Part shown: in pieces, positions 48,902-64,000 of the stretch
How positions within the stretch are numbered: the first letter of the stretch is position 1
How the letters are laid out: each line of letters starts with the position of its first letter
NCBI GenBank assembly: GCA_030998015.1
Contig: JARWMV010000251.1
Location: 620,001 to 684,000 of the forward strand
Reading direction: 5' to 3'
Length of the DNA stretch: 64,000 nucleotides
From: Ceratorhiza oryzae-sativae
Taxonomy: Eukaryota > Basidiomycota > Agaricomycetes > Cantharellales > Ceratobasidiaceae
Position numbers and translations under genes: made by a program
The notes under the pieces: model-generated
Database searches by the model: none
Told to the model about the DNA's origin: nothing
What the model saw: the letters and a program-made list of their open reading frames with translations, nothing else

Positions 48902-51900
48902 ATGCAGCAGGAAGTCCGGCTCTGCATCGTCTGCGACTCGGCGCTGGGCGCGGCGATGTTCGTCGGGCTCGCGATGCAGATCATCCAGCCCACGGTGCTG
49001 CGCCTGCAGGAGAAATACCCGGGCTGCAAGCTCAGTGTCGGAATGGTCACCTACACCACATCCACCATTCGGCCTGCCATCATCGCCCGGCGCGCGTTTT
49101 GCAACCCCACCACTCTCTTCCCGCTCTTCAGGGCTGCGCCACATCAGCTCGGCATCGGCACCACCGGACTCGGAGGTCCCAGCGGAATGGCCATGCTTGA
49201 GGGGCTGGTTGCGGCAGTAGAGGTGAGCGCTTGATTTTAGCGCGCTACGCCATTCGTGTTTAATTACGACGAGCCAGATGTGCGACGATATTCTCGAGTC
49301 ACCTGCTAGGAATCTACGCACGAGGCATCCGAACGTCGCGCAACACCCAGCACGTCTCCCACCTGTCTTCTACATCTTATTGATCGGAAACTCGAAGGTC
49401 GATCAGGCTCGTCGACCGCTCTACAACCGATCTGGTACGTTGGATGATGTTACTTGGGAAAGTTTGCCAGAAGAGCTCTCAAAGGTGTGTTTGCTATTGG
49501 TGGTGTGTATACATTTGACTCAACATCTTGCAGCGAAACATCCATCTCTCCCTATGTATCTCAACTCCGAAAGACGCCAAAGACCAGCCTGTTCTCGCCC
49601 TTCACAACAAGGCAGGTATTCTGCTCTTTATGCCATTTCATCACTCACCGTCCCACAGCTCTGGCCCGAGCCTGATCCGGTTTGGTTCCACAAGCCGAAG
49701 GGTTACATCGTCATCTTGTCCGGAACTCATATGCCCGGTGCACCCACCGCCAACCCCTCCAAACGCCCACCCGAGCAACCTGCGTCAACAGGTACACCCA
49801 AGCGCGTCAAACACGATTCCCCCAAACCCGCTTCCAGGCCTGTTCCTGGTCGGATCGACATCCCTCCTCCGAGCTTTCCGACGGCGCAAGTGCTACCCCA
49901 AGCCCAGCCTCAACCTCAAGCTCCTGCTCAGCCCACACCTACACCTGTTCCTGCTCCAGCCCCAGCCCCAGATCCTGCACCAGCGCCCCCCGTCACTGCC
50001 CCACCGCCAGCTCCCTCCATTCCCGCCCCACCCCCACCTATGATTCCAACAGCTTCATCTCAGCCTCATACTTCCCCACCCCCTCCCACTAATCCCACGA
50101 TTCCAGCATCGGCCCAACAAAATCCGCCCCACCCGGGGCAGCCGAACGTCCCCCTACCTGGTCAGGCCAATCCCCAGGTGCTCCATCTCTATCGCCAGAT
50201 CCATATGGCACTCCGCACACCCAACACGCCCCAGGAATCTCGAAACAAGCTGACGGCTAGCGGTTTTCGCATAGACGCAAGCGGTCAGTTGATTGGTGGA
50301 GCTGGAATAGTTTTCGATGCTAGAGGCGAGCCAGGTATAGGCGCAACCATGCCACCTAGAATGCATGCGATGGCGTTTGAACGGGCACGGCTTATGGCTA
50401 CCCAGGGTGCTGGGGTGGCCGGAGCGAATCCTGCAGCTCTCGCTCAACGGGCTATGGCAATCCAGGCGATGAAGCAGCAAGAACTCCTACAGCAGAGAGC
50501 CGCACAAGGGCAGGCTCAAGCTCAGGCGGGGCCTTCTCAGCCGCAGGTGCAAGTACAGCCTGGACAATTACAACCAACACAACCTGCACAGAACTCTCCT
50601 CCTAAAAGCAATGCCTCTCCGTCCCTCGTTAATCGCTCGCCCAGTCACACCCATTCTCAGCCCCATCCCATCCAAGGAGCCCTTCCGCCACAACCGCCAC
50701 AACCGATTGCTGGGACCCCCAAGCGAAGCGATATGGGAACCCCTCAGCATATTGGTATGACTCCTCAAGCCCAGAGCATAGGTACCCCTCAACACATCGC
50801 AACTCCTCATAGCCAACCGGCCCAGACCCCACAAACATACGCCGCCCCAACCCCCCAGGCTCACCTCGCAAACACTCCCCAAGGACCCGTTGCCCCCACC
50901 CCTCAGCAGGTCGTCTCAACGCCACAGCAGCCACAGTCCCATGGAACTCCTCAGCATATCGCTGGCACGCCCCAGCTATCCCATGCTACCCCCCAAACCT
51001 CGGCCACGCAGCAGTCGCCACAGAGTACGAACATGGGCTCGCAGCAGAATCCAAACATCGGAGGACAGGCAGACTTGAAGCCAAATCCCAACCCGACCAT
51101 ATCACAAAACCAAAATGTGAGCTCCGTCCAGGGATACCCCCAAATCCGAGCGCGCCGGCTCCGAATCCGGTTACGACACAAACATGGAAAGGTCAGATTG
51201 TGTACTTGCTTCGACAGCGGGACGATCAGGCACCTGCACGTTTGCACTTCCATGCTATTGCCGCTGGTGCACCCAATAATGCTATGTGAGTGCTGTTTGC
51301 CGCCGCTGCCACCTAGTTTTGTGTTGAGGCCCGACATAGCGAGACGAACAAATGGCCGTCGCGTTTGACGGCGACTAGTGGGTTCAAGGCACTGAGTAGA
51401 CCCGCGGCGCTACAGCTTTATTCGACACCATGGCCGTTTGGGCAAATCATCATCGATCCGGCGCACACGGCGACGGACCAGCAAAAGCATGCGGTCTTCC
51501 ATAAAGTTATTACGGCCGGCTATGTGAGCTTTGATTCCCTTCTGTTGTCTCTGAGCGCGTCTAAACCATGCTTGATTCGTAGAGTATATTCTACGAGTTC
51601 CCCCAAGACCCGATGAATCCGCTTCCCGCAAACGCTCCGCCTGGCTCGGCTCGCGGTTTGCTGTTTTTCAGTACCCCAGGTGCTCAGGCCCGAATCCTGT
51701 TCAAGGTGTTTTTGAATCATCTATGCCCTGCCGCGTTGTGCCGAGGTGGACAGTCTGCTGGTCCTGGTTTGATGGGAAACAACGCAAACCCGGCTGCGAC
51801 TCCTAGCACCGCCAACGGTGGAGCAGGCGCTGCCGCCGTTCCAGGAGCCGGCGCTGGTCTTCCAGCGGGACTACCAGGTGCAGCCGCTGGAATTACACCT

Positions 51901-52673
51901 ATGCCACCAGCCACAGCTGCAACACTGCCTGGTTCAGGAGTCGGATTGCCAGGAGCTGGGCTAGTAGGTATGCCAAACGGGGCGAGCAGCATAATGGGTA
52001 TCCAACCTTCAAATCCCGTTCCTGGGACTGGTTTACATGGCGTCATCCCCGGGTCGGGTACCATTCCTGGCGCCGGGGGTCGACCAAACCCAGCACCAAC
52101 CCCACCAAACATCAATGCCAACGGGAACCCGAACCCTGCGATGGGCATCAATCCTGCGATGATACCAGGCTGAATGCAAGCGGAATTCCGGGACTTGGTT
52201 CGGGTGCACTGTCAGGGCTCGGTAATGGTAGCATTCCAAGCTTAGGAGGACCTGGGATCAACCCGGGCAACGTTCCAGGCCTTTCTCAAGGTAATATACC
52301 GGGTCTAACTCCGGGCAATTTTCAAGGACTGGGGGGAGGGAACGTTCCGGGACTCGGTCCTGCTGGTCTAAACATGGCGCGGAACCCACAACAAAACGCG
52401 CTGTACCAAATGGCACTTGCTCGAATAGGTTTCACGCCAGCACAGTTTGCAAGTGCGACGCCACAGCAAAAGCAGCAGATCATGGAGCAAATCCAACGAC
52501 TCTTGATGCAAGCGAACCACCAGCGGCAGCAACAGCAACGGACAGCGGCAGTCGCGAGCGGAATGGGTTTGGCGGGTATGAGTCCCCGACCAGGCTTGGC
52601 TCCTGGACAACCTGGATTCGAGCAGTTGCAGGCGTACATGAGGCAGCAGCATCAGCGGCAAGGCGGACAATAG
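48902..52673 (+). CDS. MED25: Mediator subunit 25-like protein (VWA domain plus ACID-like domain)
   Basis: Mediator subunit that contacts transcription activators. The ATG at 48902 starts MQQEVRLCIVCDSALGAAMF; the VWA domain runs through YPGCKLSVGMVTYTTSTIRP, GGPSGMAMLEGLVAAVE, MCDDILESPARNLR, FYILLIGNSKVDQ and RNIHLSLCISTPKDAKDQP. A very long Pro/Gln-rich linker has repeated TPQ/GTPQHI units. The ACID-like part is TWKGQIVYLLRQRDDQAPAR, LHFHAIAAG, then NKWPSRLTATSGFKAL, PFGQIIIDPAHTATDQQ, VFHKVITAGY, and GLLFFSTPGAQARILFKVFL. The C-terminus has Gly/Pro repeats (IPGLxPGN type) and a Gln-rich helix, stop 52671-52673. A one-base loss is likely near 52172, where the repeats change frame. Confidence 0.85.
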
Positions 52674-61443: not shown

Positions 61444-64000
61444 TTAGGGAGCAGAATAAGGAGCCGCGGGCATCAAGTCCCTCTCGCTAGGACGTTCGTT
61501 AAGTGCGCTGAGATCAATGGGCTTGCCATGCAGCGCAAACTCGGGCGGGCATGGCCTTTCTAGGAACAACTTGAATAAGATTCGGCCTGGAGCATCAGGA
61601 GAGCTGAAAAACAATAAGCCATGAGCGGAGTTTGGTGAAGTCGCTACACAGCTCGGAGAGCTTAAAGAGAATTTGTAGAATATAGTCTGTGCACACGGGG
61701 CATTCAGCAGTCCCGAGGTATATCAAAACGATAACTTAAGTAACGCACATATCCAATTGAAACAGCCTTGTGGAATACCCTGTAGTTCTCCTGATCCGTG
61801 TCCAAGTGCGCGGTGTCTACGATGATCTGCCCAGATGGTAGACCTAACAAATACATTTCCGTCGCCGCCATGGACGACATCCACTCGAACCCTTGTGTCT
61901 CAGCCAGTTGTAATGGCCACAAACCTGCCTGGCTATCTCCCAGGTCAATTCACAAACCGGATATGATGTTGAAATATATCAAACGTACATGTTATGCCCA
62001 GATCCGCCCACAGCGATAGCATGGAAATGTAGCCGTGAGCATGTAGCCTGGCCTGCTCTATAGATTTGATACACAATTTTTCCGCTCCAGGTATGCTGCT
62101 CAGAAGGCCGGTTTAGGCTATGATAGATAGGCGAGTATACTTTCATCTGCATATCACAATGGGTGCGCGTTTTGCATCAGAAACTCGCGCCATAGGTTCA
62201 CGAATATCGAGACTACGCACTTGTTCGCTGGGTAGCGCCGTCGGCTCGGTGCCTGGCACCTCGCGCATCCGTGGGGAGTATCGATGAGTCGGGTACTTTC
62301 TATGCCCAGGTGGGAGAGTCGACCAACGGACGTTTTCCAAGCTGCTTGATTCTAGAATCTGCGGGGGCAGGTTGTGTTTAATATCAGCGATGAAACCCGT
62401 GAAAGTTTGTTCATGGATCTCGTCGAGCATCCCAAGCGCTGAGTGAAAGGGAGCAGGGACTATGGTGTCCTGGGGAGGGGAGGGGATTGCTTTCTCTGGT
62501 TGTGCTAGATCCCTCATCTATCTGATTGTAAGAATGTTTAGAAGAAAGCCGCTGCATATGTACGCGCACGCATTCAACAACCTGGGATGCGGTAGGCCGC
62601 TCCTTAGGAGAATCGGCCCAGCAGCTCTTCAACAGCGACCAAATTCTATCGCCGTAGTAGGTATTTGATGGTATATAATTTTCCGGTCGCGCAGGTATCT
62701 CTTTTGTGACAGCTTTTGCGAAGTAGATTGCGTGAACTGTTTTCATCACTTGTCAACATCACCCAATCCGCTGAAAGACATTTAAGAAAGCACTAAACTG
62801 TTTTTCTTTTCGCAATAAGGAATCTTTCCCGTGATTGTCTCCTATACTGCCATCGTAAGCTCCGTCAATTCGTTTAGTAGATGGATGATCGTTACCAGTA
62901 CAGTCTACCCAAATCTGTAGTTAGCGTAGACGATATGGAGTAACGATTTTAATAAGTATACCATCCCAAGCGAGTACACATCCGCCTCCCGAGTATTGCT
63001 GCTCTGCCTCTCGTCCATCAGCTCAGGAGCCTGTACTTGCTAAATACCAAAGTGACCTCGTACGACACAGCCCAGCACCTTACCGTCCAGTGGGGGGTAT
63101 TCCAATTCTTTTGTGTTGTTTCAATGATCGCTAATGTTCCGTCGTGAACTGCGTTGCCGAAGTCATTGATCATGGGGACACCTTCATTCGACACAAGAAC
63201 GTTAGACTGGAATTTACTAATTAGAACACCCGCTAGATTTAATGTACCGGGTGACTTACTCCCTTGAGATCTCCATGAACCTGTAGTACGACGAATTCAG
63301 TGTAATGGAGAAGAAATTAGGAGAGCACCTACGATTCCGACACAATGCAGATATTCCAGACCCTCGCATACTTGCATACTCTACTTAACCAGCTTTATGA
63401 GTCAGCACTCCCCTACAGAAAAAGAACACTCCGTACTAGAGAGTGGCGATCAATATTTGGGTGCTTGGTGAGGTATAGAGGCAAATTGCCATTGTCCATC
63501 CATAATGATATCATCCGAAGTTGGCTGTGAAACTCAACTAGTCCAAGCAGTGGCAGCACATTGGGGTGACGGCATTTTGACCACACATATAGCTCACGGG
63601 CCGCACGCTGTGGTCGTATCAGCTTCATTATAGAGAATTAGACACAGGATAACTTGCCCTTAGGAGTTTGCCAACGTTCTCCTCGGGTTCAGGACTATAT
63701 GGCAAGCGCAAGGTTTTGATTGCAACCCTTGTTCCGTCGGATAGTTCTCCTTGGTATACGTCTCCAAAGCCGCCAGTTGCTACTGGTTGGAGAGTGGTCG
63801 ATCCAGGACGGAGCTCATTTGTGAGATTTCTGCAACCACGTGCGGTAAGATGTGCTGCAATCTCGTGCAATGGCTAAATACCCAGTTAAAGCCCAAAGCT
63901 ATATGATCTGGAGCAACTGATCTTACGGTGCTTCTATCAATAGCCTTATTCTCCACGATCTCGAAAACCGCATGAACATGGATATTCAGATTGAATGGTA
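61444..64000 (-). CDS. TKL-type protein kinase fused to a MED25 ACID-like domain (5' end outside window)
   Basis: The left part is a kinase: LHEIAAHLTARGCRNLTNEL, glycine loop VATGGFGDVYQG, RVAIKTL lysine, RHPNVLPLLGLVE, YLHCVGIVHGDLKGSN catalytic loop, INDFGNAV, HWTAPELMDE and WADSPKERPTASQV. The frame then runs to PTALPSEQ and a stop at 62143. Removing an intron at 62147-62220 (GTGCGT...TGCAG, phase 0) instead joins SEQ to MKVYSPIYHSLNRPSEQH, then TWSGKIVYQIYRAGQATCSR, LHFHAIAVG, then LWPLQLAETQGFEW, LPSGQIIVDTAHLDTDQENY, VFHKAVSIGY and GLLFFSSPDAPGRILFKLFL, stop 61444. Introns at 61933-61988 and 61687-61748 share position and phase with MED25. All exons are open. The alternative is two adjacent genes with overlapping ends. 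Confidence 0.7.

Follow-up and report, generated by a model that had tools for sequence, protein, structure and literature searches.

Does the gene at the end of a 64,000-nucleotide stretch of the Ceratorhiza oryzae-sativae genome (contig JARWMV010000251.1, positions 620,001 to 684,000; hereafter the window, with coordinates counted from its first base) encode a protein kinase that ends in a copy of the ACID domain of MED25, the domain which in the human protein binds transcription activators? A sequence-only reading had predicted such a fusion, and the prediction is well supported by three lines of evidence: the occurrence of orthologous domains in the same order in a protein of a related fungus, a linker exon that is open in the frame of the kinase, and intron positions within the ACID-like domain that are shared with MED25. 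The reading that we favor, if with no better than even confidence, is that of a single gene for a TKL-type kinase plus a C-terminal ACID-like domain, which latter domain would dock the kinase to the partners of MED25.

The gene model lies on the minus strand, between about 64250 and 61444, and comprises 15 exons encoding 619 residues in a stop-free spliced frame—some comparisons, namely the Pfam scan and the BLASTP alignments with P0001 described below, were made with an earlier version of 621 residues—with the kinase in exons 3–11, a linker in exon 12, and the ACID-like domain in exons 13–15. Exon 12 (62221–62517) constitutes a 99-codon linker, from MRDLA to SEQ, in frame with the kinase; and intron 12 (62147–62220), which joins the linker to the ACID exons, has the proposed form: GTGCGT...ATGCAG, 74 nucleotides, phase 0. 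The kinase frame does reach SEQ at 62221, but not in a straight run, a further intron (intron 11, 62569–62518) being needed.

Independent support came from a database search, wherein a MED25 query against 1014 candidate proteins recovered seven at E ≤ 10. Among these was P0001, a predicted protein of Ceratobasidium sp. AG-Ba (1377 residues), with the order kinase–ACID–kinase–ACID and the NCBI name "Tyrosine kinase specific for activated." In BLASTP the window's fusion aligned with the second unit of P0001 in one stretch, from the kinase through the ACID (257/514 identical), and with the first kinase of P0001 at 229 of 331 positions. In a tree of 29 kinases—the window's, the two from P0001, and 26 paralogs fetched from the source genome—the first three formed a clade with 100/100 support, within which the two P0001 kinases were sisters (91/88); a grouping of the window kinase with P0001 kinase 2 was disfavored, if not rejected (p-AU 0.0522), and one with kinase 1 was not rejected either (p-AU 0.232). 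Across eight ACID domains, the window's fused ACID and the second ACID of P0001 (ACID2) had in common ten residues found in none of the six others, with the fused ACID sharing at most three such residues with any other domain, and ACID2 four with the window's MED25; the ACID tree agreed with that grouping weakly (71/89). Since the kinases form one clade and the ten ACID residues are shared, the kinase–ACID combination was probably in place before the source fungus and AG-Ba diverged; and, since a related fungus has the same combination, the fusion gives the impression of a genuine, inherited protein architecture and not of a misreading. The first ACID of P0001, being 90% identical to that of AG-Ba MED25 (P0003), was probably a second and recent capture from MED25. 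The first unit of P0001 contains further stretches of the MED25 linker, the beginning of the N-lobe is missing from the second kinase, and P0001 and P0003 lie on separate contigs, unlike the fusion gene and MED25 in the window, which are some 9 kb apart.

That MED25 gene occupies the plus strand from 48902 to 52673 according to our own model, in which the start codon and some joins are uncertain, and has full-length relatives in P0002, P0003, and P0006. The homology asserted between the fused domain and the MED25 C-terminus was borne out at 46% identity in a pairwise alignment and 47% in one of eight rows. The eight motifs cited in favor of that homology occur in both copies, with the correction that MED25 reads WKGQIVY, not KIVY. 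Both introns within the fused ACID have the same positions and phases (2 and 0) as those separating the MED25 ACID exons (51140–51285, 51340–51523, and 51583 onwards), and the middle exon measures 184 nucleotides in each; this sharing indicates that the ACID copy arose through duplication at the DNA level and not as a retrocopy. The likely source was the window's own MED25. An ACID query against the source genome gave five exon-level matches (E ≤ 0.001) at two loci only, the fusion gene and that MED25. The ACID of this MED25 shares 78% identity with its counterparts in two Ceratobasidium isolates and 60% with the one in Rhizoctonia solani, so that, going by this domain, the source fungus is probably a Ceratobasidium. 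As assembled, MED25 has frame breaks at 51125–51140, within a run of Cs immediately ahead of the ACID exons, and at 52165–52175, in C-terminal repeats; these are probably assembly indels, P0002 and P0003 reading through both.

The ACID family PF11232 matched the window's MED25 at E 0.22 in one scan and did not match that protein in two others; four of six domains from relatives matched below the cut-off (best E 0.066), with P0001, likewise below it, giving E 0.0057 in another scan; and the profile had no match in the source genome, the control genomes being equally silent. Database searches with the ACID alone (E ≤ 1e-3) and with the ACID part of the whole fusion (E ≤ 1) gave nothing, which results say little because the candidates were limited in length and P0001 fell outside both ranges, although P0004 and P0005 were within the range of the whole-fusion search and were nevertheless missed there. 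A sequence search of the PDB had no match at E ≤ 10. P0004, from Ceratobasidium sp. UAMH 11750 (651 residues), consists of the C-terminal half of MED25 only, without the VWA part, and is either a further ACID copy that has become detached or an incomplete prediction; the AF2 model of the whole protein (mean pLDDT 34.8) was too poor to use.

The kinase part of the fusion matched Pfam PF00069 (E 1.2e-39) and PF07714 (E 1.4e-37) above the curated cut-off, and the catalytic motifs VAIK, alpha-C Glu, HxDLKxxN, DFG, and APE, whose roles in kinases are well known, are all present. The gene extends beyond the end of the window: exon 2 spans 64007–63927 (63927–64000 within the window) and aligns loosely with P0001 from residue 25 of the latter, and a first exon at 64253–64221 is a tentative guess. 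Then, on the same minus strand, follow exon 3 (63658–63873), where the kinase domain starts, with the GGFGDV loop and the VAIK lysine; exon 4 (63437–63607), from RAAREL, containing the alpha-C glutamate, to the end of the N-lobe; exon 5 (63333–63380); exon 6 (63260–63280), with the catalytic loop VHGDLKG; exon 7 (63084–63206), with SNVLVS and the DFG motif as NDFGNAV; exon 8 (62962–63030), from the APE motif to SLGM; micro-exon 9 (62909–62914), of 6 nucleotides (IW); exon 10 (62799–62841), encoding ETITGKIPYCEKKN; and exon 11 (62570–62736), which continues the C-lobe to SQVVEC, and whose donor, that of intron 11, was picked by alignment to P0001. Exon 13 (61989–62146) encodes the first part of the ACID-like domain, with HTWSGKIVY and LHFHAIA; exon 14 (61749–61932), preceded by the phase-2 intron, the middle part, with WP..L, GQIIVDTAHLDTDQ, and VFHK; and exon 15 (61444–61686), preceded by the phase-0 intron, the end, with GLLFF, RILFK, and the stop.

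A kinase query against the source genome gave at least 140 exon-level matches, four of which belong to the fusion gene; many contain one or more stops within the matched stretch, a picture of a large TKL kinase family. In two of the paralogs, L013 and L018, which we read base by base, the splice sites coincide by eye with most of the kinase introns of the fusion gene. The intron after exon 3 (63657–63608) is of the GC-AG type, with a GCAAGT donor, in the fusion gene and has a GT donor in both paralogs, while the C-lobe micro-exon measures 9 nucleotides (TIL) in these and 6 in the fusion gene. Intron 10 (62798–62737) has no counterpart in either paralog and has a weak donor, but the spliced protein agrees with P0001; a frame change near 62760, as we first read this segment, was dropped, that intron explaining the same letters.

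For the structure of the fused domain, the model of the AG-Ba domain P0001 ACID2 stood in. The ACID domain of MED25 is a seven-stranded barrel with three helices; the best Foldseek match of the model was the human MED25 ACID, and all five matches at E ≤ 0.001 were MED25 ACID domains. The AG-Ba model thereby lends some support to an ACID fold, with human MED25 ACID also among the best matches in VIA-align, there tied with a SPOC domain, and with helix alpha-3 not predicted.

Several points weigh against the favored reading. The fusion gene is a model predicted from genomic DNA, and the fused ACID matched neither PF11232 nor any other Pfam family. The linker over the whole length was not significantly similar to the two P0001 linkers or the MED25 linker (264, 59, and 119 of 300 shuffles, respectively, reached the score). 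A match of 24 residues across the 62221/62146 join with the P0001 linker preceding ACID2 (46/2000 shuffles; 60 × 80 residues) came from a short test (46, 15, and 7 of 2000 shuffles) chosen post hoc, after the match had been seen; and, the scores being 34 for exon 12 alone, 36 with the intron retained, and 38 when spliced, that match does not decide the splice, because the signal sits mostly in exon 12. P0001 may itself be a merge of neighboring genes in the annotation. Moreover, helix alpha-3, which forms part of the activator cleft of human MED25 (PMC7564715, in excerpt), was not predicted in the fungal domain, and an activator-docking or a decoy role for the fused ACID is putative.

Among the alternatives, an unlikely one is that of an integrated decoy, in which the ACID copy would bait attackers or hijackers of MED25, be it a mycovirus or a competing microbe, with the kinase raising the alarm upon binding, a mechanism that has been proposed for kinase fusion proteins of wheat. 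Consistent with such a role, the fused ACID diverges faster between the source fungus and AG-Ba (49% identity, against P0001 ACID2) than do the MED25 ACID (78%) and the kinase (75%), and the first ACID of P0001 is so close to the organism's own MED25 as to seem refreshed; the wheat Lr9 kinase–vWA protein offers a precedent (PMC10260399, in excerpt). Neither an attacker nor an immune readout is known, however, and relaxed constraint would fit the faster divergence, too. The broader proposition, that this kinase lineage has repeatedly taken in the activator-binding domain of its own MED25, with the old copy diverging fast and a second one refreshed, as a fungal counterpart of the integrated decoys of plant kinases, we regard as decidedly unlikely.

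Improbable, too, is the presence of two adjacent genes, with the kinase transcript ending at 62143 or at 62411 and a short ACID gene having its own start. The letters allow for this: as had been noted, with intron 12 retained a stop is reached at 62143, and there is an ATG at 62146; with intron 11 unspliced, the kinase frame ends at 62411, 264 nucleotides short of that ATG; the near equality of the linker scores with intron 12 retained or spliced, and the possible merge in P0001, lean the same way. Yet the kinase frame stays open through all 99 codons of exon 12, intron 11 has by eye a counterpart in two paralogs, the overlap of the 62143 stop with the ATG leaves no room for a promoter, and AG-Ba, where the kinases are orthologous, shows the same arrangement. 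Codon bias did not settle the matter, a proportion of 0.038 of 4000 random stretches having equalled or exceeded the linker-exon score, and the kinase and ACID exons of the gene scoring about zero (−0.13 to +0.04).

Hardly likely is a fusion that exists but is decaying, with the kinase or the ACID losing function. Such a loss would accord with the one residue fewer in the kinase C-lobe, in the helix that follows APE (SLGM-IWE), than in P0001 and the paralogs L013 and L018, the GC donor of intron 3, the weak donor of intron 10, a Ty3/gypsy-like element some 12 kb upstream, and the long branch of the fused ACID (0.87), whereas the model has no stop or frame break, the core motifs of the ACID are retained, and in neutral simulations the 142-codon MED25 ACID stayed open in 66 of 2000 runs at 47% identity and in 234 of 2000 at 69%. 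The fused ACID evolves fast but is probably not free of constraint. That the domain is instead SPOC-like, and recruits the kinase not to activators but to phosphopeptides, of which the RNA polymerase II tail would be one, is just as hard to credit, for although SPOC domains came next after MED25 ACID in Foldseek and tied with it in VIA-align (10.2 vs 11.1), and alpha-3 was not predicted, the significant Foldseek matches were all to MED25 ACID and the closest sequence kinship is with fungal MED25.

Returning to the docked-kinase reading, we would propose that a DNA-level copy of the 3′ half of MED25, with its introns, came to lie downstream of this kinase before the two fungi diverged, and that AG-Ba copied MED25 again recently. 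The fused ACID would dock the kinase onto the proteins bound by the MED25 ACID, and the docked kinase would phosphorylate those partners. In animals the VWA domain is the part that anchors MED25 to Mediator; because the fusion model is without that domain, the protein may work away from Mediator, in competition with MED25. No VWA family matched the fusion model, where the stretch ahead of the kinase match is just 66 residues long and the gene's 5′ end is uncertain, a negative that is limited by the failure of Pfam to find the VWA in the window's MED25 as well. A fusion of this kind would physically link a TKL family strongly expanded in mushroom-forming fungi, and of largely unknown functions, to the activator-binding part of Mediator; would make the partners of MED25 a named candidate pathway for kinase substrates; and would provide a case for asking whether fungi add bait domains to kinases, as has been proposed for plants.

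As to the surroundings outside the window, a Ty3/gypsy-like pol at L007:5525–7819, the element upstream of the kinase, matched protease, reverse transcriptase, RNase H, and integrase zinc-binding families. At L007:1089–2375 a 429-codon frame, with related frames nearby, had no Pfam match at 1e-3; we take it, presumably, to resemble a geminivirus-type Rep.

How, then, does the fusion compare with known systems? The sequence-only reading knew of no described kinase–ACID protein; indeed, no paper on such a fusion was among the literature matches listed, but P0001 was already in NCBI, so that the architecture is a new form of kinase fusion deposited under a plain kinase name. P0001 resembles the window's fusion in having orthologous kinases that are each followed by an ACID domain, and differs in carrying two such units in one predicted protein and a first ACID that is 90% identical to that of its own MED25. 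The Ceratobasidiaceae MED25 proteins P0002, P0003, and P0006 likewise have an ACID-like domain, but with an extended N-terminal region similar to the MED25 VWA—PF11265 was below the cut-off in P0003 and P0006 (E 0.25–0.3) and did not match P0002—and no kinase. The TKL kinases expanded in the Agaricomycetes, as described in excerpts on Laccaria (PMC2838846) and the FslK lineage (PMC3937382), are of the same kinase type, whereas the source fungus's own paralogs L013 and L018 extend little beyond the kinase domain. Finally, wheat Lr9, a kinase–vWA fusion of which a tandem-kinase form exists, such fusions having arisen in grasses, as its authors infer, three times or more (PMC10260399, in excerpt), is likewise a kinase with an extra C-terminal domain, albeit in another organism and with another domain, and with a resistance function shown for Lr9.
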